From the IMG/VR virus record IMGVR_UViG_3300032053_000335, positions 1 to 30,790 of that record: a DNA stretch of 30,790 bases; one strand, 5' to 3'. This DNA comes from a virus. The position numbers were made by a program, and so were the translations under genes. Shown one piece after another: positions 3,114 through 17,905 of this stretch. The stretch's first letter is position 1. Every line of letters starts with the position of its first letter. The notes under the pieces are model-generated. The model saw nothing but the letters and a program-made list of their open reading frames with translations. It ran no database searches and was not told the DNA's origin.

Positions 3114-3619
3114 TGGAGGAGACTGGGGTTATCCCTATCATCCGCCCCAGGCCCCCATCGGTAGTGATGGTTGAGGCTTTGGACCATGTGGCTGATAAGA
3201 TTGGGGGGAAAAAGGCGTTTATCGATGCCCTCCGGTTGGTTCCTAATGATGAGTCAGCCTCGATTGTGGCTAGATGGGATCATTCCACCCCGGCTGAGCG
3301 GAAGAGCTTCAGTATCCATCAGATGGTGATTGGGGAGGGGTTGAATCCCGTGAAGGTGGTGGCCTGGATCGCCGCCGCTCTCTATGCCTACAACTCTCAG
3401 ATCGCCCATATGTTGAACGCCATTTCTCAGCCAGCCGTGATGCAGGCTGGGATTGACTCCGCCCAGATCATTGGGAAGGAAGGGGTGGCCGACCGGGAGA
3501 TGCTCTTGAAGATCTCGGGCATTCTGAAGGACAAGTCGGGGGCGCTGGTGAACATTAATGTGGGGGCTGGAGGGATCGAGTCTCAGGAGGAATTTCTGAA
3601 GGGGATAATCGATGTATAA
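3017..3619 (+). CDS. Candidate terminase small subunit
   Basis: A 200-residue protein immediately upstream of and overlapping TerL by eight bases, the standard TerS position. The N-terminus (1-35) is Arg/Glu-rich and possibly disordered. The middle (about 50-135) is helical and plausibly DNA-binding, with KIGGKKAFIDALRLVPND and NPVKVVAWIAAALYAYNSQI. It is followed by a segment typical of small terminases, DSAQIIGKEGVADREMLLKI (147-166), and a C-terminal GILKDK...NINVG stretch. TerS recognises the packaging site and regulates TerL. ATG 3017 has GGAG only two bases upstream, unusually close; no better start was found. Assignment rests on position and motif resemblance. Confidence 0.55.
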   Translation: MVKRRSGNSEETERRPSSRRGRRAPEAPIPAVVEETGVIPIIRPRPPSVVMVEALDHVADKIGGKKAFIDALRLVPNDESASIVARWDHSTPAERKSFSIHQMVIGEGLNPVKVVAWIAAALYAYNSQIAHMLNAISQPAVMQAGIDSAQIIGKEGVADREMLLKISGILKDKSGALVNINVGAGGIESQEEFLKGIIDV

Positions 3620-5852
3620 CCCTAAGGTTACGGAACAACAGTTGTTCATCGCTAAGGAGCGGATGGAGAAGAGGCTGAAGATCCGGATTGACCTTAAACG
3701 TTATTCTATCTCTGATTGCATGGCGTGGATGACTCATCTCAGGGAAGCGGGAGATCTGGTGGAGGGGACCGGGGGAAGGCTGGAGATTATCACCAAGCGC
3801 CCTCTCACCCCGGAGGAGGTGTCGTTCGTCAGGTCCGAGCGGCTCCTGTGCGCGTGGGACTATCGGTATTGGGCGGAACGTTACCATCGGATCCTGAATT
3901 GGGAGAACCAGACCTTCATCCGCTTCATCCCGAATGTCGCCCAGGAGATCGTCCTGGATGTCATCTCCAACGAGGAGTTGCTGGGCCATTCCGTCCGAAT
4001 GCAGAACCTTAAGGCCCGGCAGCTCGGAATTACCACCCTGATGGAGTCTCTGGCGGAGCATAGGGTGATGTTCCACCCCAACACCAAGGCTATCGTTGGG
4101 AGCGCCGCCCCGGATAAGTCCAAGAAGATGGTTATGATGGTGGAGGCCAGCTGGATGATGATGCCTTGGTGGCTGATGCCGTCCATGACGGCCAGGCAGT
4201 CGGGGGAGATGATCGAGTTTGGGGGTCTTGGTTCGAACCTATCGATACGCCACGGGACCCAGAAAACTACCGACGTGGGGCGTGGCGAGACCCCCAACTT
4301 CGCTCATCTTTCGGAGATAGTCGATTGGGCTAATCCGGAGGCCGACATCGATGCCGGGTTGATGATGGCCATGCACTCTTCCCCTTCCATGTTTCTGGCT
4401 CTGGAGTCGACGGCTGGCTACATTGGGGACTGGTGGCACGAACTCTGGAAGTTTAACAAGAGCCGGTATGGCAGCGCTGATCAGCCTCCCCGTTTGATTC
4501 CCCTGTTTCTCCCCTGGTTCATCGGGAAGGACATCTACCCGACCGAGACCGATATGAGGGAGCATCCAGTCCCTACCTTCTGGCGTCCAGCCGAGTTGAC
4601 CCGGCAGCACGCCGTCAGGGCGGCGGAGTATGTCAAGAACAGCCCTATCCTCTCCCGGCATATGGGGGTGGGGTGGGAGATGCCCATTGAGCAGCAATGG
4701 TACTGGGAATATACCCGGGACTATTACAAGAGGACGGGGAAGCTTAACACGTTCCTCCGAGAGATGCCCGCCAATGACATCGAGGCGTTCAACTCTAAAT
4801 ACTCGAGTGTGTTCGACGCGGAGGTAATTGAGCATTACAGCCTGGTCACCAAGATACCCGAGCGGATCTTCTGTTTGGACGGCCCGATTGATGAGATCCG
4901 TCCGGAGTTGAAGCCCGATTACCGGCAGCAGGATCCCAATATCAAGCCCATCATAATTGATAAGAAGTGGACTCTCGTTCCAATCAAGAAGGCCGGATAC
5001 CCGGACCAGATAGGGGAGATGGGGAAAATCTTCATTTGGGAAATGCCAAAGGATGGGAGCACTTATGGTCTCGGAGTCGATACTTCCAAAGGAATTGGCC
5101 AAGATCGCTCCGTCATCCAGGTTCTTAGAAAGGCCACTATCGATCTACCTCCAAGACAGTGCGCCGAATTCGCGCATGATTATGTGTCCGCCAATGATCT
5201 GTCTCCTTGGGTCCACTGCCTGGCAAAAATATTCTCGGTCAAGAGGGACGACGAGATATGCCAGCCAAAGCTTATCATTGAAACAAACAATGGTGGAGAC
5301 GCCTGCCAGTTGGCGATGAGGAAGTTGGGATGGTATAACTTCCACAATTGGGAACGATACGATAAGAAAAAATCCGATGAGAGCAAGGCGAATTTTCTGG
5401 GCTTTATCATGGTAGAGTGGGCCAGAGAGTTGGTTGTTGGAGGCCTCATTAAGGCTCTTAAGGACTCGCTTATCGATATCGACTCTCCCTGGCTGATTGA
5501 GGAGATGGCCCAGTTGGAGAAGAATGACGAGAAGCGCCGGATTGAGGCTGGGGGGAAGGGTCATGACGACAGGTTTATGTCTCTCGGGATGGTGCTCCTC
5601 TCCCTCCACGCGAGAGATTGGGAGAGCTTGAAGAGCCCATTTGGCCGCTCCCGGGTGCAGTCGATGGAGGATGAGAAGGTCAATATCGATGGGAGGGAGA
5701 TAAAGGAAGATCTGCCCGTTCAAGCCTCCCGGAAGAGCTGGACGGATCTGGCTCTGCAGGGGATAGATGGTGAGACTCCCCTTCAGTGGAAGGAAGGGGG
5801 GTATGGAGATGGAGAGTGGCAAGACTCAGCTCCATTCGTTACGGTACCGTAG
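3612..5852 (+). CDS. terL: Terminase large subunit (ATPase-nuclease)
   Basis: The DNA-packaging motor that docks on the portal, pumps DNA using ATP and cuts it. The N-terminal ATPase carries a degenerate Walker A typical of phage terminases, LKARQLGIT (133-141), a Walker B-like strand FAHLSEIVDW (230-239) in which the acidic pair reads Ser-Glu, and a coupling motif LALEST (262-267). The C-terminal RNase H-like nuclease shows its three acidic positions: GVDTSKGIGQDRS (Asp490), LIIETNNGG (Glu557) and GKGHDDRF (Asp652/653). At 746 residues it is longer than the common 450-600, with an N-terminal extension of about 100 residues. Start ATG 3612 overlaps the TerS candidate. Confidence 0.95.
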   Translation: MYNPKVTEQQLFIAKERMEKRLKIRIDLKRYSISDCMAWMTHLREAGDLVEGTGGRLEIITKRPLTPEEVSFVRSERLLCAWDYRYWAERYHRILNWENQTFIRFIPNVAQEIVLDVISNEELLGHSVRMQNLKARQLGITTLMESLAEHRVMFHPNTKAIVGSAAPDKSKKMVMMVEASWMMMPWWLMPSMTARQSGEMIEFGGLGSNLSIRHGTQKTTDVGRGETPNFAHLSEIVDWANPEADIDAGLMMAMHSSPSMFLALESTAGYIGDWWHELWKFNKSRYGSADQPPRLIPLFLPWFIGKDIYPTETDMREHPVPTFWRPAELTRQHAVRAAEYVKNSPILSRHMGVGWEMPIEQQWYWEYTRDYYKRTGKLNTFLREMPANDIEAFNSKYSSVFDAEVIEHYSLVTKIPERIFCLDGPIDEIRPELKPDYRQQDPNIKPIIIDKKWTLVPIKKAGYPDQIGEMGKIFIWEMPKDGSTYGLGVDTSKGIGQDRSVIQVLRKATIDLPPRQCAEFAHDYVSANDLSPWVHCLAKIFSVKRDDEICQPKLIIETNNGGDACQLAMRKLGWYNFHNWERYDKKKSDESKANFLGFIMVEWARELVVGGLIKALKDSLIDIDSPWLIEEMAQLEKNDEKRRIEAGGKGHDDRFMSLGMVLLSLHARDWESLKSPFGRSRVQSMEDEKVNIDGREIKEDLPVQASRKSWTDLALQGIDGETPLQWKEGGYGDGEWQDSAPFVTVP

Positions 5853-7210: not shown

Positions 7211-9340
7211 ATGGCCGATGTGAGGAGACTTTCTGATTATAAATGCCCGCTCCCTTGGGACGAAAAGTATGGAGCGGATGTTTATAGGTTAGGGTGGGTA
7301 AAAGAGGCGATCCAGGAGGGAACCAATTACCTAAAGCTTCAAAGGGCTTATCCCATGCTGGACAAAGCCATCGATATCATCAGTGGTTATGAAGAGGATC
7401 CCGTTCCCAAGTCCTTGTCTGATGTCAAGTCGAACCGGTTGAAGATGCACGTTCGGGAAATCGTTGCTACCTTGAGCAATCTCCGCCCAATTTTCTCCTT
7501 CAAGTCGGAGAATGAGCTGTTCCAGACGTCGGTGGACCACTTGAATAAGACAACGGTCGCTTGGTGGAAGACCACCCGGGCGGCCAGGAAGTTCCGGGCG
7601 GCTCTTCAGTGGGCCACGGTTTCCACTGGTTATTTAAGCCCTGTTTGGGAGAGAAACTTCTGGCCAAATGGCAAGGGTGATATCGATTTGAAGCCTTATG
7701 GCCCCCGGGATGTCCTGCCGGTGCAGATCGGGAGAGACCACAACATCCAGGACGCCTACGCCATCGTTATCTGCAACGAGGTGCCGATTAACAAGGCCAG
7801 GGAGATGTATCCCCAGTTCGCGGACCTGATGAAGCCTGATCGGGAAACCCCCTCCTGGTACAGTGGAATGTTGGGAAGGATCAGGAATAAGGCCCGCTCC
7901 ACCTATCCCCGCCACCTCCTGGACATCATTGGGGGGCAGAAGGAGGATTCCACCCCGTCCGGTCCAACCATCGACATCTATAACATCTACATTAAGGATC
8001 AGTCGGTGAATATGGCGAACAGGATGATCAGCATGGGCAAGCCGGGAACTACCTGGCATTATCAGGTTCCCTTCATGGGGCAGGATATAAAGACCAACAG
8101 CATAGCTGGAGCGGATACTCGGAAAGCCACCGAGGACGATTGTAGGATGTTCCCGCTCCGCAGGCTGATAGTCGCCACGCAACATGCCATCCTCTATGAC
8201 GACACGAGCTTCTGGTGGCATGGGATGGTTCCCCTCATCCAGCTCCGGCTGGACGACTGGGTTGACCAGTTCCTTGGGTATTCCCTGATTCACGACGCCT
8301 ACCCCCTGAGCAGGGCGATGAATGACAACCTGAGAGGGTATCAGGATTACCTCAGCAAGTGCCTCCGGCCCAACCTGAAGTACGCTCCTGAGGGAGTGGC
8401 GAAGTCTCATATCAACCGGTATGACCCGAGGGTGAGTGGACAGAAGATTCCAGTGAACATGGCCATGGGAGAAGACATTGTCTATGAGGATCCCCCGAAG
8501 CTCACGGCCAGCCCGATTGAAATGCACAATCTTCTCAAGGCTGAAATGGCCGATATCATGGCTACCCCCAGCATGAAGGATCTGGCCCGGGCCAATCAGG
8601 TGCCCTCCCAGGAGACTTTCGAGAAGTTGCAGGAGATCGCCGGACCTATCGTTCAGGATATGTCTGGCGGGATGGAGGAGGCTTTAATCCCGCTGGGAGA
8701 GATGGTGAAGGGACTGATCCACCAGTTCTACCGGGCGCCCAGGAAGATCTCCATGATGGGGAAAGATGGGGTGACCGAGGAGGACTTCAAGTTCGAGCCC
8801 CATATGCTGATTCCGTCCGAGTTCAGGGAGGGGCAGCTGCCAGAGGTCTATCCGAAGTTCGACATCCCAGACAACCTCGAGAGGGCTAGGAGAGTCATGG
8901 GAGGGTCGCTCTTCAACGTGGTGCCCGGGTCTCTCCACCAGATTACTCAGACCCAGCGGAAGCTGTTCCTGATGCAATTTTGGAGAGACCAGCGTTTTCC
9001 GATTGACCCGCAGACGGTCGCGGAGGCGTTCGACTTTACCAATTTTGGAGAACTCCCCGGTTCCCCCCATACCATCTTTGACAGGTGGCAGGTCTGGAAG
9101 AAGATTGAAAATGACATGAATATCCAGTTGATGCTGCAGCAGGAGAAGGCCAAGATGGAGTTGATGGCGCAGATGCAACCCCAGGCCGATCCGAACGCGG
9201 ATCCAAATGCCGCCGGTGGGGAGGCTGGAGGACAGCCAGGCAAGGCGGCTCCGGGAGAAGGCCGGAAGCCCTCCGCCGATAAGCCTCCCCATATAGAGCA
9301 GAAGGACGGGGGAACCCGTCAGACAGTTAGCGAGAGTTAA
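7211..9340 (+). CDS. Portal protein
   Basis: A 709-residue protein at the canonical place after TerL. Portals form the dodecameric vertex through which DNA enters and leaves. Features consistent with a large podovirus-type portal are a helical N-terminus, the segment WATVSTGYLSPVWERNFWPN (about 138-157) with downstream PYGPRDVLPV, and a long central alpha/beta region. It also has a helical stem/crown region (about 420-520, LLKAEMADIMATPSMKDLAR) and a C-terminal Gln/Met-rich helix followed by a disordered Gly/Pro/Lys tail. There is no catalytic motif. Start ATG 7211 has GAGGAGGG six bases upstream. The TAA stop is directly followed by the first base of a tRNA gene. Identification is by position, length and composition. 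Confidence 0.85.
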   Translation: MADVRRLSDYKCPLPWDEKYGADVYRLGWVKEAIQEGTNYLKLQRAYPMLDKAIDIISGYEEDPVPKSLSDVKSNRLKMHVREIVATLSNLRPIFSFKSENELFQTSVDHLNKTTVAWWKTTRAARKFRAALQWATVSTGYLSPVWERNFWPNGKGDIDLKPYGPRDVLPVQIGRDHNIQDAYAIVICNEVPINKAREMYPQFADLMKPDRETPSWYSGMLGRIRNKARSTYPRHLLDIIGGQKEDSTPSGPTIDIYNIYIKDQSVNMANRMISMGKPGTTWHYQVPFMGQDIKTNSIAGADTRKATEDDCRMFPLRRLIVATQHAILYDDTSFWWHGMVPLIQLRLDDWVDQFLGYSLIHDAYPLSRAMNDNLRGYQDYLSKCLRPNLKYAPEGVAKSHINRYDPRVSGQKIPVNMAMGEDIVYEDPPKLTASPIEMHNLLKAEMADIMATPSMKDLARANQVPSQETFEKLQEIAGPIVQDMSGGMEEALIPLGEMVKGLIHQFYRAPRKISMMGKDGVTEEDFKFEPHMLIPSEFREGQLPEVYPKFDIPDNLERARRVMGGSLFNVVPGSLHQITQTQRKLFLMQFWRDQRFPIDPQTVAEAFDFTNFGELPGSPHTIFDRWQVWKKIENDMNIQLMLQQEKAKMELMAQMQPQADPNADPNAAGGEAGGQPGKAAPGEGRKPSADKPPHIEQKDGGTRQTVSES

Positions 9341-9415
9341 AGCGGAGTGGAGCAGTAGCAGCTCGCTTGGCTCATACCCAAGAGGTCGGGGGTGCAAGTC
9401 CCCCCTCCGCAACCA
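9341..9415 (+). tRNA. Initiator tRNA-fMet (CAU), CCA encoded
   Basis: The anticodon stem CTTGG/CCAAG encloses loop CTCATAC, anticodon CAT. Initiator hallmarks are visible: position 1 is A and position 72 is A, so the first acceptor pair is mismatched as in bacterial initiators (C1-A72 in E. coli), and D-stem pair 11-24 is A-T. The body GGAGTGGAGCAG and the 3' end CTCCGCAACCA closely resemble bacterial fMet tRNAs. Departures are T29-A41 replacing one of the three G-C pairs of the anticodon stem, a short D loop, and TGCAAGT rather than TTCAAAT in the T loop. An elongator Met or Ile2 tRNA would pair 1-72. It starts on the base after the portal stop codon. Confidence 0.85.
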
Positions 9416-9421
9416 ATTCCC

Positions 9422-9450
9422 TTGACATCCCTATGGATATATGCTGTAAT
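9422..9450 (+). promoter_or_regulatory. Strong sigma-70-like promoter
   Basis: TTGACA (9422-9427) is followed after 17 bases by TGTAAT (9445-9450), preceded by TG plus one base as in extended -10 elements. It lies between the tRNA-fMet and the first glycosyltransferase. Transcription would start near 9457, only about 20 bases before the terminator hairpin at 9475-9497. A second TTGACA occurs at 9458-9463 without a good -10. Confidence 0.55.
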
Positions 9451-9474
9451 TCAGTCGTTGACACCTTTCCAATT

Positions 9475-9497
9475 GGGGCCTTATGGCCCCGTTTTTT
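9475..9497 (+). terminator. Intrinsic terminator
   Basis: GGGGCC (9475-9480), loop TTAT, GGCCCC (9485-9490), then GTTTTTT: a perfect six-pair GC stem with a six-T run. It ends messages from the packaging module and would also stop or attenuate transcripts from the promoter at 9422-9450, 25 bases before the first gene of the sugar cassette. Confidence 0.8.
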
Positions 9498-9521
9498 CGG
9501 AAGTCGGGGGGCTTCTAAGGG

Positions 9522-10223
9522 ATGAAGATCACACTGGTAATTCCAACCATCCGGCGGTATGACCTCCTTGAGAAGTGTCTGCGTTCCTTCTTCCTCAGCA
9601 GCAGGCTTCCCAATGAAATCCTAATTATCGACAACGGTAACAACTCCAGGCTATTATCGCTAAACATCGCCAGGGAAAATATAAAACGATATAACATCCA
9701 CATCTACACTCCTCCTGAGAACCTTGGGGTAGCTAGATCCTGGAACTTCGCCATGGACTGGTGCATCAGGAATGACTCCATCTGGCTCAGTTGCAACGAT
9801 GACATTGAGGTGGAATCTGGATTCCTGCGCCTTATGGAGATGGCTTATGGGGACATTAACCTCTCTAATGAGCTGCCTATACTCGTTCCCGAGCATGGGA
9901 CTGGGCAGATGTTCTCAGCTTTCATGGCAGGTCCTGCTGTGCTTAAGGAAGAGGTGGGGTATTTTGATGTCAATTTCTTCCCGGCCTATTTCGAGGACAA
10001 TGATTATTTCTACCGGATGAGACTCTTAGGGAAGAAGTTTTTCAACGTTGTGGAAGGGGCCTATTACTCTCACAAGAACAGCTCCACCGTTGCTACCTAT
10101 TCGAAAGAAGAGTTGATGGCCCATCATAAGAACTTCGGTTTTCTGGCGGAGCTTTATGAGAAGAAATGGGGAGGCCTCCCTGAGCACGAGACATTCACGA
10201 AACCTTACCAGGGGGCTAAATGA
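9522..10223 (+). CDS. GT2 family glycosyltransferase
   Basis: A 233-residue GT-A fold enzyme that transfers a sugar from a nucleotide donor. The N-terminus is typical, MKITLVIPTIRRYDLLEKCL, with the strand EILIIDNGNN (32-41), NLGVARSWNFAMDW (67-80, acceptor/nucleotide region) and the metal-binding acidic motif WLSCNDDIEV (88-97). Later segments AYFEDNDYFYRMR match the catalytic region of GT2 proteins. It has no membrane helix and would act in the cytoplasm. The RBS is weak (AAGGG only two bases from ATG). It is the first gene of a six-gene overlapping sugar operon; its stop TGA overlaps the next start as ATGA. The acceptor is unknown: virion protein, lipid-linked glycan or DNA are all possible. 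Confidence 0.88.
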   Translation: MKITLVIPTIRRYDLLEKCLRSFFLSSRLPNEILIIDNGNNSRLLSLNIARENIKRYNIHIYTPPENLGVARSWNFAMDWCIRNDSIWLSCNDDIEVESGFLRLMEMAYGDINLSNELPILVPEHGTGQMFSAFMAGPAVLKEEVGYFDVNFFPAYFEDNDYFYRMRLLGKKFFNVVEGAYYSHKNSSTVATYSKEELMAHHKNFGFLAELYEKKWGGLPEHETFTKPYQGAK

Positions 10224-11113
10224 TGGGATACCCTATATATGCGAGCAGGGAGCAGCTTATTGAGTGGGCTAAGGAATTTCCCTGCAGTGCTTGTCGTGGA
10301 TCCGGGAAGACGGATAAGGGATTTTATTGTTCCGCTTGCCAGGGATGTGGCATAGATCAAAACTCACCAGCTAGTTACGATTGGAGGCAAATGAACGGAA
10401 CACCCGCGCTTACAATTATCACCCCGACCTTTAACAAGGGGAAGTATTTAAGAGACGCCGCTCATTGTGTCTTTATGTTGACATGGTGGGACTGGGTTTG
10501 GTGGATCATCCTCGACAACGCCAACGAAGAGACAAAGGAGGTGGCCTTCTCCATCAGGGACGACCCGAAGATGTGTGGAAAGGTTAAGATCTTCGAAGAG
10601 ACCTTCCCGGAGGCGGAGCGCTTCAAGGAGTGCAGACCGGCGGCGATGATCAACAAGTATTACCCGATGGTGGAGACCAAATATCTTTATTGGTTCTCGG
10701 ATGACGATCTTCTGGACCGCACTGGGATAGAGAGGTTGATAGGGGCATTGGAGAGCCACCCGGAGTGGGACATCGCTCATGGCAGGTGTGTTATAACCCA
10801 TGAGCTTAAGGACGGATCTTATGTGGTCTATGGGGAGTTGGGGGGCCGCTCTGACATAGGGCTGGGGACTGGGATCATGCCCCTTTGTCAGATTGACGGT
10901 GGACAGATCCTACAGACCAAGAGGTCTTATGACAGGTTGGGAGGATGGCAGCTCACCACTCTCATGGCGCACGCCGCTGTTGTCGATGGGGTTTACATGA
11001 ACAAGCTGGCGGAGCACTTCAGATTTCATTACGTGGACACCCCCCTGCTGACCCACCGGAGAACCAAGTTAAGCGTGTATATCACACCAGAGGCGTTAGG
11101 AGACCACCGATGA
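10220..11113 (+). CDS. GT2 glycosyltransferase with DnaJ-type zinc finger
   Basis: A 297-residue protein. The N-terminus (22-44) carries two CXXCXGXG repeats, CSACRGSG and CSACQGCG, the pattern of half a DnaJ cysteine-rich domain, likely one zinc site. After a linker, a GT-A domain begins at residue 62: PALTIITPTFNKGKYLRDAA, then WWIILDNANEET (94-105), and the acidic metal motif YWFSDDDLLD (157-166). The start forms an ATGA overlap with the upstream GT2 gene and the stop forms another with the methyltransferase, showing tight coupling. The zinc module may bind a protein acceptor or partner; that is inference. The fusion is unusual for GT2 enzymes. Confidence 0.85.
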   Translation: MMGYPIYASREQLIEWAKEFPCSACRGSGKTDKGFYCSACQGCGIDQNSPASYDWRQMNGTPALTIITPTFNKGKYLRDAAHCVFMLTWWDWVWWIILDNANEETKEVAFSIRDDPKMCGKVKIFEETFPEAERFKECRPAAMINKYYPMVETKYLYWFSDDDLLDRTGIERLIGALESHPEWDIAHGRCVITHELKDGSYVVYGELGGRSDIGLGTGIMPLCQIDGGQILQTKRSYDRLGGWQLTTLMAHAAVVDGVYMNKLAEHFRFHYVDTPLLTHRRTKLSVYITPEALGDHR

Positions 11114-11724
11114 CCTATGAATGGAATGAGGCAGTTTCCAAGGAGTTCGATGAATATTGGGGCAGCCCCTATGAAATAAGTGTGCGGAGGGAAATTTCCG
11201 AGTGGATCGGCCCAACGGACTTCTTGGTTGAGATTGGGTGTGGAAGCGGCAGGCAGGCGGAGGCTATGAAGTGGAACTTCTACGTTGGGGTGGATGGTTC
11301 GCTCCCCATGCTGGCCCTGGCTGACAAACTGCTCAAAGGTCGTTCGGCTGCGTTCATGCGCCGGGACGCGGCGGACACAGGTTATGGGGATCATTCGTGC
11401 GACACGGTGCTGTGTGCCCAGGTTATTAGGCATAATGACGACTTCCGTCCAATTGTCAAGGAACTCTGCCGGATTGTGAAGAATAGACTGATTATCTCGG
11501 ACAGGTTTCTTATTGGGGAAACCACGCGCAATTACAGTTGGGAGGGGAGATGGCCTGACATCCAATGGGACCTGCAGGAAGTGTTGGGATACCTGATGTC
11601 CTGTCTTCCCGGGTGGATCGGCAGATCAGAGAAGCTATTCCACTACCCGGAGATTACCATGATTGAGTTCAAGAGGGGGAGAGATGGACAAGATCCCGTT
11701 GTTCCGCCCGAAGTATCGGGATGA
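11110..11724 (+). CDS. Class I SAM-dependent methyltransferase
   Basis: A 204-residue Rossmann-fold methyltransferase of the Methyltransf_11 type. Motif I is VEIGCGSGR (40-48), which binds SAM; motif II is VGVDGS (59-64); the post-II acidic region is RRDAAD (84-89), followed by SCDTVLCAQVIRHNDD (96-111, motif IV region) and the strand NRLIISDRF. The upstream part of the open frame is out of phase with the glycosyltransferase and is not used; ATG 11110 overlaps the previous stop. Within a sugar operon, O- or N-methylation of a sugar or of the glycan end is the simplest role, but a protein or small-molecule target cannot be excluded. It overlaps the next gene by 41 bases. Confidence 0.87.
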   Translation: MTYEWNEAVSKEFDEYWGSPYEISVRREISEWIGPTDFLVEIGCGSGRQAEAMKWNFYVGVDGSLPMLALADKLLKGRSAAFMRRDAADTGYGDHSCDTVLCAQVIRHNDDFRPIVKELCRIVKNRLIISDRFLIGETTRNYSWEGRWPDIQWDLQEVLGYLMSCLPGWIGRSEKLFHYPEITMIEFKRGRDGQDPVVPPEVSG

Positions 11725-12802
11725 GATCCTAGAAGACTTGCGGAGCGTGTTCTATAGCGGGTGGACTGGCTTGGGGCCTAAGACTGAGGAGTTCGAGAAG
11801 CAATATGCTATACTTTGCAGGTCGAAGTATGCAATTGCGTTTAACTCCTGCACGTCCGCTATACGGTGCTGGTGCGATTTCAAGTTCAGGAAGGGGATAA
11901 GGGTCGCCAAGGTAAGCCCCCTCACCTTCGTATCCACTGCCTCGGAGCCTTTTAAGGCTGGGATGAGAATCGATTGGACTGATATCAATCCAAACAACCT
12001 ATGTATGAAGGCCGTAAGCATGGACGAGAAGGATTGTTGCTACATCCCGACGTGCTATGGGGGATCTTATGCGCCCTTCTACGACTTTGCCTGTTTGAAA
12101 AAATTCAGGAGTGACTTCGAACGCTCCGTATTAATCGATGCGGCTCACTGTTGTCCTCCCCCTAGTCCTGCCTTGTTCCCGATTGGGATGGACGCGGCCT
12201 GGAGTTTCCACGCGGTCAAACCTATCAGCTGTGGGGATGGAGGGATGCTCACCACCGATGATGAGGAGCTGATGACGTTCGCCCGGAAGTGGAGATGGTT
12301 TGGAATCTCCAGTTCTACTCATGAGAGATCCACTGGGGGGTACAAGTGGGACTATTCCATCAGAGATCTTGGAGAGAAGGCCCACATGAACGATATAACC
12401 TCCACGATTGGGCTAAATCAGTTGAAGCATTTTATCGCTGGGTGGACTAGCAGAGCCTCCATTCACTCCCAATATATTAACTACTTGTATGACGTGAAGG
12501 AGATATCCTTCCAAAAACTACCGTTCTTGTCCTCTTATCACCTGATGCCAATCATGGTACCCATGGGATATAGGGATGAATTGATGGCTTATCTTCTCAA
12601 CCTTGGGATTGATACGGGCGTCCACTACAAGCCCCTATATATGCACGCTGGGCTTCCCCCTACAAACGCACGGACTCCCAACGTAGAAGCCCAATGGAGC
12701 AAACTGATCAGTCTGCCTATGTGGATAGGAATGACACCAGATGATGTAAGGAGGGTATGTGATGGAATTAGAGAGTGGTTTGGCCATGAAACCCATGGAT
12801 AA
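11684..12802 (+). CDS. DegT/DnrJ/EryC1/StrS-type sugar aminotransferase
   Basis: A 372-residue PLP enzyme of the family that converts nucleotide-linked ketosugars to aminosugars using glutamate or glutamine. Family landmarks are SGWTGLGPKTEEFEKQYA (25-42), the PLP phosphate region FNSCTSAI (53-60), LIDAAHC (150-156, Asp152 contacting the pyridine nitrogen) and WSFHAVKPISCGDGGMLTTD (173-192) with the Schiff-base Lys179. Length matches the family. ATG 11684 has AGAGGGGG just upstream and lies within the methyltransferase gene. The ketosugar donor pathway (dehydratase, nucleotidyltransferase) is not in the window, so the enzyme presumably draws on a host or distant phage pathway. It overlaps the acetyltransferase gene by 41 bases. 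Confidence 0.93.
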   Translation: MDKIPLFRPKYRDEILEDLRSVFYSGWTGLGPKTEEFEKQYAILCRSKYAIAFNSCTSAIRCWCDFKFRKGIRVAKVSPLTFVSTASEPFKAGMRIDWTDINPNNLCMKAVSMDEKDCCYIPTCYGGSYAPFYDFACLKKFRSDFERSVLIDAAHCCPPPSPALFPIGMDAAWSFHAVKPISCGDGGMLTTDDEELMTFARKWRWFGISSSTHERSTGGYKWDYSIRDLGEKAHMNDITSTIGLNQLKHFIAGWTSRASIHSQYINYLYDVKEISFQKLPFLSSYHLMPIMVPMGYRDELMAYLLNLGIDTGVHYKPLYMHAGLPPTNARTPNVEAQWSKLISLPMWIGMTPDDVRRVCDGIREWFGHETHG

Positions 12803-13241
12803 GTCCTTGGGTAATTTTCTTCTGCTCCGGAGCCTCAGAAACGCCGACCGGGAATGTTTTATCGACTGCGACTCTATTGGTTTCTGGAAACATTGGAAGT
12901 GGTGGAGGCGCTATTGGAGCGGATCTAACCAGCTTTTCTTTGAGATCTGGCTGGGTAGAAAGAAGGTTGGGTTCATCAGCCGGTCAAGGATTGAGACCCT
13001 CCAATATGAGATTGGGAACCTGATGCTCAAGAAGAAATTCAGGGGAAGGGGCATAATGTCGTGGGCGGTTGGGATCTTATCAGCTTACGATGAGGACGTT
13101 TATTATGCCAGGACCTTGGAGGAGAACATCAGCAGCCGGAATGTGTTTATCCGCGCTGGATTCGCCAGGAAGGGAATATCGTGGGCTCCTAACGGCGCAT
13201 TTATAATCACATGGATGAAAGGAAAACTAGGTGAAGACTAA
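12762..13241 (+). CDS. GNAT-family N-acetyltransferase
   Basis: A 159-residue protein with the acetyl-CoA-binding GNAT core: YEIGNLMLKKKFRGRGIMSW (82-101) includes strand beta4 and the pyrophosphate-binding loop RGRGIM, followed by the helix and RTLEENISSRNVFIRAGFAR, the conserved motif B in which Asn and the aromatic Phe contact CoA. ATG 12762 follows AAGGAGGG by six bases; GTG 12759 is a possible alternative. Placed directly after a sugar aminotransferase, it most likely N-acylates the new amino sugar, as in FdtC- or WbdR-like pairs, although those named enzymes are of other folds in some cases. Trp-rich residues 42-52 are unusual. Confidence 0.82.
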   Translation: MELESGLAMKPMDKSLGNFLLLRSLRNADRECFIDCDSIGFWKHWKWWRRYWSGSNQLFFEIWLGRKKVGFISRSRIETLQYEIGNLMLKKKFRGRGIMSWAVGILSAYDEDVYYARTLEENISSRNVFIRAGFARKGISWAPNGAFIITWMKGKLGED

Positions 13242-14382
13242 ATTACTACTCTGGAGTGACGCCCCGGAAGGCATGACTGGACTGGGGAGGATCATGCGGG
13301 AGCTGGCCATGAACATGGTCGCTGACCCTGAGTTCATGGAGAAGTTTGAGGTGGCTACCCTCGGGTACAACGCGCACCCTACCAAGCTTCTTCCCTGGTG
13401 GCAGTATGGGCACCAAAGACAGCTGCCTGATTGGGACTGGATCCGGGCGATTCTCGATTACAAACTGTCAGGGCCTGAGGAGGTGGTGATTGTCCCGATC
13501 ATGCCAGCAAGTTGGCTGTTCGATTACATGCACCCCGAGTTCCTCAAGAAGGAAGATGCCTTCAAGGTGGAGTTGGGGAAGGTGAAGGAGAGTGTCAAGT
13601 GGTGGCCTTATATAGCCACGGAGTCCCTGGGGATAAACGACAGGTTCAGTACGAATGACATCAGTTCCCTCTCTCGATGTCAGAGAGTCCTCTATTACAG
13701 TGATTGGGGGAAGCAGGCGGCTGCCCGGTCTGGGCTGGGAGAAAACACATTTGTCCACCATGGAATTAACTATCCAACCTTTTCACATTTCCTCGAATCT
13801 AAGGAAGCCAATAAGAAGTTGGTAATCAGTTGCGTGATGACAAATCAGTGGAGGAAGAGATGGGCGCTTTTCTTCGAGACCTTGGGCAGGCTCACCCCTG
13901 AGTTTGAGGTTAAGATTCTGATCGATACTCTTATTGGGTACTGGAACATCTACCAGTTGGCGGGGGATAATCGCATCGACGTGACGGCTACCATTTCCGG
14001 CCCGTTGATTGATGATTTCAAACTGGCGGAGTTTTACTCTACCTCTGATCTTTTGATGCTTCCTTCATATGGGGAGGGGTTTGGGTATCCGGTGATAGAA
14101 GCCCAAGCAGCTGGGACGAAGGTGTTGACTGGATTGTTTGGCGCCCAGAAGGAGCTTCTGCATCCAAAGTTGAAAGCGGTGCCTTACTCCGGGATGGAGA
14201 CTGATGGGATTAACGGGCTGGTAAAACCGTGGTATGATCCTTCCGATTGGAATTTTTTTGCTCGGGCCAATATGGAGTCTGATGTGACTGCGACGGAGCT
14301 GTCTGAGCATGCCAAGCAATGGGACTGGTCAATCCAGTGGCCCCGTTTTAAGAATTGGTTCATGGAAGGGCTTTCCACTTAG
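13231..14382 (+). CDS. GT-B glycosyltransferase (GT1/GT4-type)
   Basis: A 383-residue GT-B enzyme that starts at GTG 13231 with AAGG eight bases upstream, overlapping the acetyltransferase by 11 bases. The N-terminal domain starts LLLWSDAPEGMTGLGRIMRE, a donor/acceptor loop with the TGLGR signature of GT4 enzymes. The C-terminal domain carries the diagnostic LPSYGEGFGYPVIEAQAAGT (277-296), where the EGFGYPxxEA motif binds the nucleotide sugar. It is soluble, with no membrane helix. As the last enzyme of the cassette it probably transfers the modified sugar. A signal-peptide protein follows 20 bases downstream on the same message. Confidence 0.9.
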   Translation: MKTKLLLWSDAPEGMTGLGRIMRELAMNMVADPEFMEKFEVATLGYNAHPTKLLPWWQYGHQRQLPDWDWIRAILDYKLSGPEEVVIVPIMPASWLFDYMHPEFLKKEDAFKVELGKVKESVKWWPYIATESLGINDRFSTNDISSLSRCQRVLYYSDWGKQAAARSGLGENTFVHHGINYPTFSHFLESKEANKKLVISCVMTNQWRKRWALFFETLGRLTPEFEVKILIDTLIGYWNIYQLAGDNRIDVTATISGPLIDDFKLAEFYSTSDLLMLPSYGEGFGYPVIEAQAAGTKVLTGLFGAQKELLHPKLKAVPYSGMETDGINGLVKPWYDPSDWNFFARANMESDVTATELSEHAKQWDWSIQWPRFKNWFMEGLST

Positions 14383-14402
14383 GTCCTTCAAGGAGGATTC
14401 GG

Positions 14403-14744
14403 ATGAGATTTTTTCTGGTTGCTACATTTATTTTTTTGTGCTTAACGTCTTTGGTCATGGCGAAGCCGTTCGTGGTGTGTGATCCCTATCCGGTAGCTAT
14501 GAGTCTGGATGGGTTTAGAATCCAGTTCGATGGTGGGGCGTGGGTAGATGTTCCATTGACCGTTAACCCGGATGGAACCAAGCAGATCCACTATGATTTG
14601 GGGCCTCTAAATCTCTCCACTGGGAACCATGTGGTTAAGGCGAAGGCTTACAATGTGTGGGGGGACAGCGACGAATCGCTCCCTTTCTCCTTTCCCGCTG
14701 GGAAGCCGGGGAGTCCCACTACCTTATTCTTATCCGCGCAGTAG
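14403..14744 (+). CDS. Exported small beta-sandwich protein
   Basis: A 113-residue protein that starts at ATG 14403 after AAGGAGG. Residues 1-20 are a clear Sec signal peptide: MRFF, a hydrophobic core LVATFIFLCLTSLV, then MA as a signal peptidase I site before KPFVV. There is no lipobox Cys at +1. The mature part has alternating beta strands, FRIQFDGGAWVDVPL and GNHVVKAKAYNVWGDSDES, resembling a fibronectin type III or Ig-like fold. It belongs to the end of the sugar operon and is followed by a terminator. A secreted protein within virion genes is unusual; possible roles are surface modification, superinfection exclusion or periplasmic function, none proven. Confidence 0.72.
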   Translation: MRFFLVATFIFLCLTSLVMAKPFVVCDPYPVAMSLDGFRIQFDGGAWVDVPLTVNPDGTKQIHYDLGPLNLSTGNHVVKAKAYNVWGDSDESLPFSFPAGKPGSPTTLFLSAQ

Positions 14745-14791
14745 AGATAGAGGTCAAGGAAAAGCCTGACAAAAGGCATGGAAGATGAAGA

Positions 14792-14816
14792 GGCCCTCGA
14801 AAGGGGGCCTTTTTTA
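14792..14816 (+). terminator. Intrinsic terminator closing the sugar cassette
   Basis: AGGCCCTC (14792-14799), a GAAA tetraloop, GGGGGCCT (14804-14811) and a T run: an eight-pair stem with one T-G pair capped by a stable GNRA loop. It lies 48 bases after the exported protein gene and bounds the cassette on its right. The region 14817-14915 is pyrimidine-rich and contains no clear promoter that I can name, although downstream genes need one. Confidence 0.88.
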
Positions 14817-14915
14817 TTTTCCCCCTTAAGTTACTCCTTCCATAAGGGTTATGGTTTTTACCCACTATTCCCCCCTTGCTCTCCCTCTCTATAGGATTAA
14901 TCCGTGAGGTGTTAT

Positions 14916-15140
14916 ATGCCTTGGACAAGCGCGGAAGCGGTTATGCATACGAAAAAGGCTTCGTCTCCTAAGAAGAAACAGGTTTGGTCGGAAGTTGCGA
15001 ATAAACAACTGGACAAGTCTGGGGATGATGCATCAGCCGTTCGAGTGGCTAATTACGTGGTCAAAGGGATGGGCAAAGGGAAGAAGAAGCTCCTCTCTTC
15101 CAAGAAATCCTGCGGCTCGAAGAGCTGCTCAAAGAGGTGA
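14916..15140 (+). CDS. Small basic phage protein (DUF7218/ChaB-like)
   Basis: A 74-residue, strongly basic protein. ATG 14916 follows GAGGTG; an in-frame GTG at 14904 is an alternative. It matches a widespread class of short phage proteins that begin MPW, contain a HTKKA...PKKKQVWSEVAN helix (10-28) and then GDDASAVRVANYVVKG (36-51), ending in Lys/Ser/Cys-rich sequence. The class is known from gene neighbourhood around head genes, but its biochemical role is not established to my knowledge. The C-terminal CGSKSC could bind metal or form a disulphide. Confidence 0.7.
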   Translation: MPWTSAEAVMHTKKASSPKKKQVWSEVANKQLDKSGDDASAVRVANYVVKGMGKGKKKLLSSKKSCGSKSCSKR

Positions 15141-15143
15141 CTC

Positions 15144-15503
15144 ATGGGTGGAATGATTCCGTTTCCTCCTGCACAGCAGGGGGGTGGACCTGGACCACAG
15201 AACTTTGATCCGGGGGCAGCCATGGCTGGCTCTGGGCCTGACCAATTAGCTCAGATGCAACAACAGTCTCAAATGGAGCAGAGCGCGGGGATGTTGGAAA
15301 ATTTGAAGGATCTTAGCGCTGGGTTGACTCAGGCTCAAGATTTTGTGACGACTATCGCCAGCCAGTATCCGGGGGCAGCTCAATATGCCAGGACAGTTAT
15401 TGAGGCTCTGGACGTGGCAAATAAGGGGATCGTGGATCTTCTAACGGCTGTGATCAGCCAATCGAATGTTCCGGAGCCCATGGCTCCCAAATATTTGGGA
15501 TGA
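15144..15503 (+). CDS. Hypothetical Gln/Gly-rich virion-region protein
   Basis: A 119-residue protein that starts at ATG 15144 after GAGGTGA, four bases after the previous stop. The N-terminal half is disordered and Pro/Gly/Gln-rich (PPAQQGGGPGPQNFDPG; LAQMQQQSQMEQ). The C-terminal half is a helical bundle (MLENLKDLSAGLTQAQDFVT; ARTVIEALDVANKGIVDLL). It resembles short head-assembly accessory proteins in length and composition, but no family is recognised. Its location before the scaffold and capsid genes supports a head role. Confidence 0.6.
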   Translation: MGGMIPFPPAQQGGGPGPQNFDPGAAMAGSGPDQLAQMQQQSQMEQSAGMLENLKDLSAGLTQAQDFVTTIASQYPGAAQYARTVIEALDVANKGIVDLLTAVISQSNVPEPMAPKYLG

Positions 15504-15866: not shown

Positions 15867-16751
15867 ATGCCTATTAAGAAAGAAGTAGTTGATTGGCTTA
15901 AGAGCCTGCCCCTTGGAGATGATGCAAGGAAAGCTCTGGAAGCGGATCTGGAAAAGAAAGAAGTCCAGGACGCAGTTGGAAAGTCCGTTATGGCTACCGC
16001 TGATTACAGCAGGGCCATGGACAAACTGAGAGATCAAGAGACGGAAATGAAGCGGGTGTCCGACGAGGCCATTTTTAAGGCCAACAATCTGCTTCAACAA
16101 AATGTAACCTGGCGCAATAAGAACGAAGTGACGGTCAGGGCCGCTATTGATGACGCGCAAAAGAAAGGATATGTCTTGCAGACGCTTCAGACAAAGTTAC
16201 AAGCATTGGCTGAGCAAGGGTTGATAGATCCGAGGGAGTTTGACATAACGGCTCCCGTGGCTCCAGCTTCTACCCCTGTTCCTCTGAAGAAGTTCATGAC
16301 GGAGGAAGATATATCTGAGAGGCTTCAGAAGAAAGAAATGGAATTCGCGTTTGCCATGGCCAACTTCGAGGATATTGCGGATCAGCATAAAAGGTTGTTT
16401 AACCAGCCCTTGAAGAGAACCGAATTGGTCCAGGAGATGCTTCAAAAGGGTCAGAGCCTTGAGGATGTTTGGAAGGCCAAATACAAGGTTGATGACCGGC
16501 TAAAAGAAATAGATGAGGCCGTTATCACTGACCGGATTAAGAAGGCTGTTGAGGAAGAGAGGACCGCTATCCTATCTTCTCGGGCAGCGTCTCCGGGTGG
16601 AGGGCCATCCCCTTCTCTGGGCGAGGATCATATCGTCAATATTTTAAAACCTGTCCGCTCCGCTGGGATGAGCGAGGGTGTGCGGGCTGCAGTTGACAGT
16701 TACAATCGTGGAGAATTTCGAACCAATGAAACCCAACCCCCTAAGGTGTGA
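15867..16751 (+). CDS. Putative scaffolding protein
   Basis: A 294-residue, highly charged and helical protein immediately before the capsid gene, the classical place of the internal scaffold that guides procapsid assembly. Long helices are evident: ARKALEADLEKKEVQDAV, ATADYSRAMDKLRDQETEMK, and a coiled region around 140-225 (DISERLQKKEMEFAFAMANF). The C-terminus is Pro/Gly-rich then positively charged, as in scaffolds that contact the capsid. ATG 15867 follows GGAG. It has no protease motif. Identification is from composition, length and gene order; no family signature was recognised with certainty. Confidence 0.7.
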   Translation: MPIKKEVVDWLKSLPLGDDARKALEADLEKKEVQDAVGKSVMATADYSRAMDKLRDQETEMKRVSDEAIFKANNLLQQNVTWRNKNEVTVRAAIDDAQKKGYVLQTLQTKLQALAEQGLIDPREFDITAPVAPASTPVPLKKFMTEEDISERLQKKEMEFAFAMANFEDIADQHKRLFNQPLKRTELVQEMLQKGQSLEDVWKAKYKVDDRLKEIDEAVITDRIKKAVEEERTAILSSRAASPGGGPSPSLGEDHIVNILKPVRSAGMSEGVRAAVDSYNRGEFRTNETQPPKV

Positions 16752-16789: not shown

Positions 16790-17905
16790 ATGGCTGACCC
16801 TTTAATTCAGGAACTCGAAGCAACAACCAAGTTTTATCTGTGGCCGAAAGCGGTTACGGACAACTTTTTCCGTGGTGCTCCTCTCCAGGCGCATATGCGG
16901 CAGAAGTGTTTAACGACCTTCCCCGGTGGCCTTGACATGCGGTTCTCCTTCATCTACGCTCCCCTGATTGGTGGAGCCTATATGCAGGGCGCGAACTTCA
17001 ACATCACCAAGCCCGCCACCATCACTTCCGCCGTGTTTGATCCAAAGTTTTATGAGATCAATATCACGGAATACCTAGAGCAGATCCGGGTGCAGAACGT
17101 TGGACCCGAAGCCTCCTTCTCCTTGATCGAGAATGATTTGAACAACGCGATGTCCACCATCTCGGCTATCATGGCGATTGCCATGGCTCGGGACGGGCAG
17201 ACCGCTGCCAGGATCGCCCAGATCAATGGTTGGACGGAAGCCTATAACGATGGAATCACTCCCTCGTGGGATGGCAACGTCTACGCCACTTATGGGAAGC
17301 AGCTCAGGAACGGCGCCATCGGTAACACCTTGAACTCCATTCCTCGCTGGTGCGGCGATGCGGCTGGCAACCCGGCCCCCATCACCTACCAGATCTTGGA
17401 AGAGACCTACCAGGATTGTTGCAGGGCAAACGTGGAGCCCGATCTTGGGTTCTGCAACAAGAGACTGTTTGCCGGAATCAAGAACCGGATTCAGCCCCAG
17501 CAACGGTTCGCTCAGGAGAAAGATCCCGTGTGGGGCGTCACTGGCATGAAGATGAACAATGCCTTGCTCATGAAGGATGACTACTCTCCGTCGCTTGCCT
17601 ACGGCCAGAATCACGCGATTCTGGGGAACTACCTGACCGGAGCGTTTGCGGTTCCAGTTGGAGTGGATACTCAATCCAACCTGCCTGCTGCCCAAACAAA
17701 CGTGACGGTTGGAGAGGTCTTCGTGTGGTGCAACACCGACAAGTGGCTCTATTTCGTGGCCAAGGATCCTCTCTTTGCCTTTGGTTTCACTGGCTTCAAG
17801 CCGGGTCAAGACAACACCCGGGTGAGCGGTCAAGTGCTGGCCATGGCCAACATGCAGAACAGGTCTCCCTGGTCTGGAAAGCAACTTTATGGACTGAGCG
17901 CCTAG
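16790..17905 (+). CDS. Putative major capsid protein
   Basis: A 371-residue protein following the scaffold candidate, with AGGAG before ATG 16790. The layout suits an HK97-fold capsid subunit. It has a helical N-terminus (ELEATTKFYLWPKAVTDNFF), an E-loop-like stretch with FPGGLDMRFSFIYAPLIGGA (44-63) and ENDLNNAMSTISAIMAIAMA (113-132), the long spine helix. A glycine/aromatic-rich beta segment follows near the end (TGAFAVPVGVDTQ; NTDKWLYFVAKDPLFAFGF). The compositional signs of high expression fit: few rare codons and a C-rich codon third position. The C-terminus MANMQNRSPWSGKQLYGLSA is intact. Sequence alone cannot prove the fold. Confidence 0.78.
   Translation: MADPLIQELEATTKFYLWPKAVTDNFFRGAPLQAHMRQKCLTTFPGGLDMRFSFIYAPLIGGAYMQGANFNITKPATITSAVFDPKFYEINITEYLEQIRVQNVGPEASFSLIENDLNNAMSTISAIMAIAMARDGQTAARIAQINGWTEAYNDGITPSWDGNVYATYGKQLRNGAIGNTLNSIPRWCGDAAGNPAPITYQILEETYQDCCRANVEPDLGFCNKRLFAGIKNRIQPQQRFAQEKDPVWGVTGMKMNNALLMKDDYSPSLAYGQNHAILGNYLTGAFAVPVGVDTQSNLPAAQTNVTVGEVFVWCNTDKWLYFVAKDPLFAFGFTGFKPGQDNTRVSGQVLAMANMQNRSPWSGKQLYGLSA

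Follow-up and report, generated by a model that had tools for sequence, protein, structure and literature searches.

The window analysed here, a 30,790-nucleotide stretch of a virus record, carries a compact operon of sugar-modifying enzymes between its portal gene and its scaffold and capsid genes. This cassette is best explained as a lineage-specific cargo operon (moron) inserted where the portal and scaffold genes of a podovirus-like soil phage meet; the phage is related to phages of Acidobacteriota. The operon probably serves to decorate the virion with an amino sugar that is methylated and N-acylated, the capsid being the likeliest site of attachment; we infer the acceptor on the virion, and likewise the chemistry of each step and the benefit to the phage.

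Enzymes of the cassette

The portal gene ends at 9340 and forms the left flank of the cassette, with the scaffold-position and major head genes on the other side. Between them lie genes for two family 2 glycosyltransferases (GT2a and GT2b), a methyltransferase, a DegT aminotransferase, a GNAT acyltransferase, a GT4-type GT-B glycosyltransferase (GTB) and a signal-peptide protein, in the order given below together with the neighbouring signals:

9341..9415, + strand: tRNA-Met (CAT), initiator-like (ARAGORN; Rfam RF00005, 55.8 bits; fold)
9422..9450, + strand: sigma-70-like promoter, TTGACA-N17-TGTAAT (11/12 match)
9475..9497, + strand: terminator 1, GGGGCC-UUAU-GGCCCC then G U6, hairpin 9475-9490 (-13.1 kcal/mol)
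9522..10223, + strand: GT2a, family 2 glycosyltransferase (PF00535, 36.7 bits, cut-off 23.3; phrog_29879, E 1e-32)
10220..11113, + strand: GT2b, family 2 glycosyltransferase (PF00535, 29.3 bits; TIGR04440, E 3e-10)
11110..11724, + strand: class I SAM-dependent methyltransferase, EIGCGSG motif (PF08241, 54.8 bits, cut-off 21.2, E 2e-14)
11684..12802, + strand: DegT/ArnB/PseC-like NDP-sugar aminotransferase (PF01041, 165.6 bits, E 2e-48)
~12786..13241, + strand: GNAT N-acyltransferase (PF00583, 26.0 bits, cut-off 20.7; PF13302)
13231..14382, + strand: GTB, GT-B fold, GT4-type retaining glycosyltransferase (PF00534, 32.7 bits, cut-off 26.4; PF13692, 31.8 bits)
14403..14744, + strand: small exported protein, 113 aa, with signal peptide (final gene ahead of terminator 2; strong RBS)
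14787..14822, + strand: terminator 2, 12-bp stem and U-rich tail, hairpin 14787-14814 (-19.3 kcal/mol)

The initial annotation had named these six enzyme families and the exported protein, and its calls held: all six enzymes score above the Pfam curated cut-offs, and the signal peptide was found. Adjacent enzyme genes overlap by 4-41 nt, and no disruption is seen in these overlaps, in the reading frames or in the catalytic motifs. In alignments, GT2a keeps its NDD and ED motifs, and GTB conserves EX7E, H177 and R208-K209 (40 sequences), so that both show the intact catalytic residues expected of phage enzymes that glycosylate a virion. GT2b carries an N-terminal Cys-rich (DnaJ-like) zinc-ribbon motif. 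The AlphaFold2 model of GTB has a pLDDT of 90, and its top PDB match in Foldseek, 3oy2 of Chlorella virus NY2A, is likewise a virus-encoded GT-B glycosyltransferase. The two proteins share 14% identity, differ in biology and have a very common fold, so that the match is weak evidence, a slight hint towards the virion reading.

The PLP lysine of the DegT protein is conserved in alignment, and the ArnB-type structure 8sng matches it at E 3e-32. The PseC model matches at E 4e-48 and 164 bits, below its equivalog cut-off of 423.5, and the ArnB model gives 129 bits against an equivalog cut-off of 631; judged from these scores, the enzyme appears to resemble PseC/ArnB at the subfamily level only, short of the equivalog level. 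The start codon of the GNAT gene is uncertain, its ORF opening at 12759. The 113-aa exported protein had no match in Pfam, PHROG, NCBIfam or phages.

The enzyme set had also been read as a recipe for making and attaching a modified amino sugar. Enzyme families for amination, acylation, methylation and transfer are all represented, but the making is only partial: the cassette holds no NDP-sugar nucleotidyltransferase and no 4,6-dehydratase, so that alone it could not make the sugar from scratch, and an NDP-4-keto sugar is needed from outside. None of the six enzymes has a membrane segment, and no cassette gene has a Pfam match to the GtrA flippase, GtrB polyprenol transferase or multi-span GtrC of gtrABC-type systems.

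Promoter, terminators and tRNA

The promoter reported earlier at 9422 has no equal in the window: no other site on the two strands matches as well, and shuffled sequence gives 0.125 such sites per strand. It sits upstream of terminator 1, and no promoter-like site lies between this terminator and the first cassette gene. It therefore cannot simply drive the cassette, and the separate control that had been proposed for the operon cannot come from it by itself.

The terminators proposed on each side are borne out: no other + strand site of the window reaches -13 kcal/mol, and the second of the two is the strongest of all. Shuffles gave 0.7 sites per strand at the -13 level and about 0.06 at -18, so terminator 1 is credible mainly for its intergenic position. 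Consensus counts alone did not exceed chance (3 sites against 6.7 expected), and energy ranking was needed to find terminators. A leader hairpin at 9499-9520, considered as an attenuator, gained no support (fold z-score -0.94).

The tRNA-Met gene had been overlooked. It starts at the base directly after the portal stop codon, filling the gap behind the portal gene, and has an A1xA72 mismatch as in initiator tRNAs; it is absent from three relatives (L002-L004).

The portal/capsid junction

The interval between portal and capsid genes is 1.6-4.0 kb in 55 of 56 related phage loci versus 7.45 kb here, which shows the cassette to be an insertion. The earlier reading, a cassette for sugar modification that was inserted among the virion genes, is thus upheld by an empty site in relatives and intact catalytic motifs. 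Presence in one phage and absence at the same junction in relatives is also what marks a moron; as for the control signals of such elements, a terminator is present at the cassette end and the promoter match precedes the upstream terminator. Two near relatives, Tunturi_1, whose genome is complete, and L003, a record of 65 kb, have no gene of PF00535 or PF01041. The relatives were recovered by alignment queries; a scan of viral contigs with the single portal protein gave none.

The two flanks of the insertion share no exact word of at least 9 bases, and direct repeats bordering it could not be made out. Small genes at 14916-15503 have no homologues in relatives, which makes the right edge of the insertion uncertain.

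Related gene sets in other phages

The initial annotation had proposed a search for the same gene order in related phages. This junction is empty in nearly all of them, as described above, but parallel cassettes exist on the other side of the portal gene: L069, L044, L072 and L256 carry GTB homologues (27-31% identity) with a GT2 between terminase and portal, whereas the cassette of the window lies between portal and scaffold. The cassette of L069 comprises GTB, epimerase, GNAT, methyltransferase, GT2 and GT2a, with the epimerase where the window has DegT; L072 also has a GT2a homologue. L256 comes from a single-cell genome. Within the GTB clade of the window, GTB lies within 2.5 kb of terminase/portal in L069, L044, L176 and L256 and beside the portal gene in L072, and at least 8 kb away in L174, L175, L180-L182, L184 and L185. 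This mixed linkage counts against the virion reading. GTB of the window stands on a long branch, with no identity above 29%, and may thus have another specificity; DegT, GNAT and GT2b were seen together with the GTB/GT2a pair in this phage only. Relatives of DegT in viral contigs L089-L091 sit in other sugar islands and were uninformative as a guide.

The GTB/GT2a pair recurs beside head genes in phages otherwise unrelated to that of the window. In Synechococcus phage S-CBS4 (gp014-gp016) the pair and a methyltransferase stand between portal and protease/capsid, and in Pontimonas phage phiPsal1 (genes 010-012) directly after the capsid gene. Their GT2a proteins are 32-34% identical to that of the window and, like the GT2 of L072, homologous to it by alignment; their methyltransferases are not homologous to that of the window (BLASTP), and, unlike in the window, DegT, GNAT and a second GT2 are missing next to the pair. 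In Microcystis phage Mae-JY09 GTB is one gene behind the capsid gene, and in TJE1 it precedes terminase. The GTB profile recovered 80 loci, 43 of which have an HK97-like capsid gene directly upstream, and the capsid proteins (MCPs) upstream of GTB form 11 clusters at 50% identity. Of 26 environmental records in which an HK97 capsid gene accompanies the pair, 25 have GTB downstream of that gene, in the same orientation and at a distance of 88-658 nt; about 0.9 would be expected.

GTB of the window itself had no match in isolated phages, but that of a relative does match there. The GTB alignment found only two loci in 84,980 bacterial and archaeal genomes, one of them plainly phage. No paper describing this arrangement of capsid gene and glycosyltransferase was found in the literature searched.

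Discussion

In mycobacteriophages, phage-encoded glycosyltransferases glycosylate the capsid and tail tube (PMC12363180; PMC11256854). For Che8 the glycosyltransferases gp108-gp110 are linked to this modification by Freeman et al. 2023, as cited in both of these papers. Like the cassette of the window, the Che8 set is a phage-encoded cluster of several glycosyltransferases with a methyltransferase, gp108 reading from its sequence as a GT2 with a methyltransferase domain, and it acts on the virion, as the cassette probably does. However, gp108-gp110 gave no sequence match to the GTB or GT2a profiles (A4, A5, A6), lie near the right end of the genome outside the head module, and have no DegT or GNAT annotated beside them. 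The cassette is best explained as functionally like that of Che8 but built of non-homologous enzymes.

The initial annotation had left the target as virion or host surface. Unlikely, in our judgement, is the second of these, in which the infected cell would have its LPS, O-antigen or exopolysaccharide altered for superinfection exclusion or to keep progeny from adsorbing. Enzymes of the DegT/ArnB/PseC, GNAT, GT2 and GT4 kinds are indeed typical of LPS, capsule and EPS loci, and the operon ends with a signal-peptide protein, but the cassette lacks membrane enzymes such as a flippase or a polyprenyl-phosphate transferase, and host-surface modification gives no obvious reason for the placement in the head module or for the recurrent adjacency of the core pair to the capsid gene. 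The same adjacency speaks against service to another virion part, such as a tail fibre, a spike or the exported protein, even with a 113-aa exported protein without known relatives in the same operon and a tail tube that is also glycosylated in mycobacteriophages (PMC12363180); intact frames, overlaps and motifs argue against partly decayed cargo without current function, and we hold this group of explanations to be less probable still. Glycosylation of modified phage bases, as in T4 and as by the phage glycosyltransferase sets for DNA glycans of Pyle et al. 2024 (as cited in PMC12619734), is very improbable, since no PF00303 (thymidylate-synthase/hydroxymethylase) homologue occurs in 25 related records, five of them with this GTB, no base-modification gene was recognised within the window, which covers about half of the phage genome, and the neighbours of the cassette are head genes, not replication genes. 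The comparative evidence favours the virion, the acceptor itself being what we infer.

For virion glycosylation one may envisage the following course. The host, or an unseen phage gene, would supply an NDP-4-keto(-6-deoxy) sugar, which DegT would aminate, and GNAT would acylate the new amine. GTB and GT2a, the presumed ancestral core pair, would assemble the glycan in the cytoplasm, on a head protein, while the late genes are expressed; GT2b might add a further sugar and the methyltransferase would cap a sugar. The phage could gain shielding, stability or adsorption.

More broadly, we see a somewhat less than even chance that many tailed phages (HK97-type, cyanophage and podovirus-like) use the GTB/GT2a pair as a mobile module for capsid glycosylation, usually in the order capsid gene, GTB, GT2a. 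The phage of the window would then have added DegT, GNAT and methyltransferase, so that its shell bears an amino sugar both N-acylated and methylated, and glycosylated capsids would be frequent among environmental phages. As a rule, phage glycosyltransferases are classed as auxiliary metabolic genes (AMGs) or as genes of host takeover, and proven virion glycosylation in tailed phages is limited, in the literature searched, to a few mycobacteriophages. A homologous glycosyltransferase pair that immediately follows the capsid gene in phages of divergent kinds offers a testable sequence predictor of capsid glycosylation, and isolated phages carry the pair. If the prediction is true, the reading of many 'AMG' glycosyltransferases would change and sugar-coated phage shells may be far commoner than the few proven cases, with the phage of the window as an example of a glycosyltransferase module gaining a rare-sugar branch.

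Putative sugar-modification cassette in the virion module

The IMG/VR virus record of 30,790 bases belongs to a phage whose relatives include Tunturiibacter phage Tunturi_1, a podovirus and Acidobacteriota phage (PMC11924767). In addition to the virion genes, an amidase gene is recognisable in the window. The features relevant here are:

3612-5852, terminase
7211-9340, portal protein
9341-9415, tRNA-Met(CAT), its first base directly after the portal stop codon
9422, sigma-70-like promoter
9475-9497 (+), terminator 1
9522-10223 (+), GT2 glycosyltransferase (GT2a)
10220-11113 (+), second GT2, followed by methyltransferase, DegT and GNAT genes
13231-14382 (+), GT4-type glycosyltransferase (GTB)
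14403-14744 (+), exported protein
14787-14822 (+), terminator 2
15867-16751, scaffold-position protein
16790-17905, major head protein

The initial annotation placed a sugar-modification cassette amid the head genes, and the portal-scaffold interval indeed holds six enzyme genes, all above their Pfam cut-offs (6/6), with successive overlaps of 4-41 nt, followed by a gene for a 113-aa signal-peptide protein. None of the six enzymes has membrane segments (0/6). The GC content of the six-enzyme operon differs mildly from that of the flanking virion genes (0.51 vs 0.54). A tRNA cluster (Glu-His-Gln, 430-686, - strand) at the window's left end runs opposite to the virion genes.

The AlphaFold2 model of GTB (pLDDT 90, pTM 0.90) predicts a GT4-like GT-B fold. 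Its top match among solved structures is 3oy2, a chlorella-virus glycosyltransferase, a ranking that is only a hint because many cellular GT4 enzymes come next. The GTB residues E282/E290 (EX7E), H177, R208 and K209 are invariant across 40 sequences, and GT2a keeps its DD and ED motifs. DegT is nearest to the ArnB/PseC-type NDP-4-keto-sugar aminotransferases, with scores under the equivalog cut-offs, a similarity at subfamily level that only suggests its substrate.

Insertion at the portal-capsid junction

Portal and capsid queries gathered more than 80 related loci, and both genes are visible in 56 of them, a set that counts Tunturi_1 and contains near-duplicate contigs. The portal-capsid distance has a median of 2.1 kb and lies between 1.6 and 4.0 kb in 55/56 related loci; in the window it is 7.45 kb. 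No GT2 or DegT genes were found anywhere in the records of the near relatives L003 and Tunturi_1. By this comparison, the cassette is an insertion at the portal-capsid junction.

Other cargo was also seen in this region. The remaining one of the 56 loci (L012, 12181-21275) carries 9.1 kb of different cargo in the same slot, including two large proteins of 1003 and 914 aa with signal-peptide-like N-termini. Tunturi_1 has an annotated HNH endonuclease within its portal-head slot (L004:5009-5605), as if this slot were a hot spot for cargo. In the terminase-portal interval of another related locus (L077:5640-6740), an ORF judged by eye from its sequence to be TnpB/OrfB-like is found.

Signals bordering the cassette

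A terminator had been proposed on each side of the cassette; both are present and are, by energy ranking, the two most stable of the + strand. Terminator 2, at -19.3 kcal/mol, is strong by itself. The count of generic terminator consensus sites in the window is not above chance. At -13 kcal/mol, the level of terminator 1, chance alone would give 0.7 sites per strand; this terminator is credible because it is also intergenic and located at the operon border. Of all sigma-70 matches in the window, the proposed promoter at 9422 is the closest to consensus, but it lies 24 bases upstream of terminator 1 (region 9422-9497), so that its transcript would stop after ∼40 nt unless the terminator is leaky or anti-terminated; the pair would thus yield a short transcript or an attenuated leader. 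The initial annotation overlooked the tRNA-Met(CAT) gene, which is initiator-like with an A1xA72 mismatch. No tRNA was found in the searched stretches of the relatives L002-L004.

The glycosyltransferase pair in other phages

In four loci of the same phage group (L069, L044, L072, L256), a GTB homologue occupies the terminase-portal interval and a GT2 follows downstream; the L069 set additionally has an epimerase, a GNAT, a methyltransferase and a further GT2. Among isolated phages, S-CBS4 has GTB-GT2-methyltransferase between the portal and protease/capsid genes, and phiPsal1 has a capsid gene followed by GTB-methyltransferase-GT2. Related GTBs are located one gene downstream of the capsid gene in Mae-JY09 and immediately upstream of the terminase in TJE1. 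In a further related phage, a long glycan island (L174:9992-17856) containing GTB and several GT-like and methyltransferase-like ORFs stops just short of the terminase.

Linkage was counted in loci picked by glycosyltransferase sequence rather than by neighbourhood. Among environmental contigs retrieved with the GTB profile, an HK97-like capsid gene lies directly upstream of GTB in 43/80 loci, or 41/67 of those whose upstream sequence is long enough. Compared across 55 loci and phiPsal1, the capsid proteins form 11 clusters at 50% identity. GTB lies 88-658 nt downstream of the capsid gene, on the same strand, in 25/26 records with a PF05065 match, whereas uniform placement would give 0.9 such records. 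The GTB tree has well-supported clades: that of the window (100/98), an S-CBS4/TJE1 clade and a capsid-linked clade. In the clade to which the window belongs, the linkage varies, with fewer than half near a terminase or portal, and the placement is therefore suggestive rather than proof.

Possible function of the cassette

Virion proteins of Che8, Corndog and Myrna are glycosylated by phage glycosyltransferases (PMC12363180). Che8 gp108-110 gave no match to the GTB or GT2a profiles, so that the cassette would work similarly but is not a member of the Che8 set. No description of the capsid gene-GTB-GT2a arrangement was found in the literature searched, which in itself does not make it novel.

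The cassette could instead modify the host surface, but the membrane enzymes usual for that task are missing from it. Glycosylation of DNA is disfavoured by the absence of a hydroxymethylase from 25 relatives. Because the enzymes are soluble, the cassette sits in the head module and the link to capsid genes recurs, a head protein is the most likely acceptor. According to this model, an NDP-4-keto sugar from the host would receive an amine from DegT and an N-acyl group from GNAT, the glycosyltransferases would move the sugar onto the cytosolic acceptor, and a methyl group would cap the glycan. Both this acceptor and a benefit to the phage are inferred.
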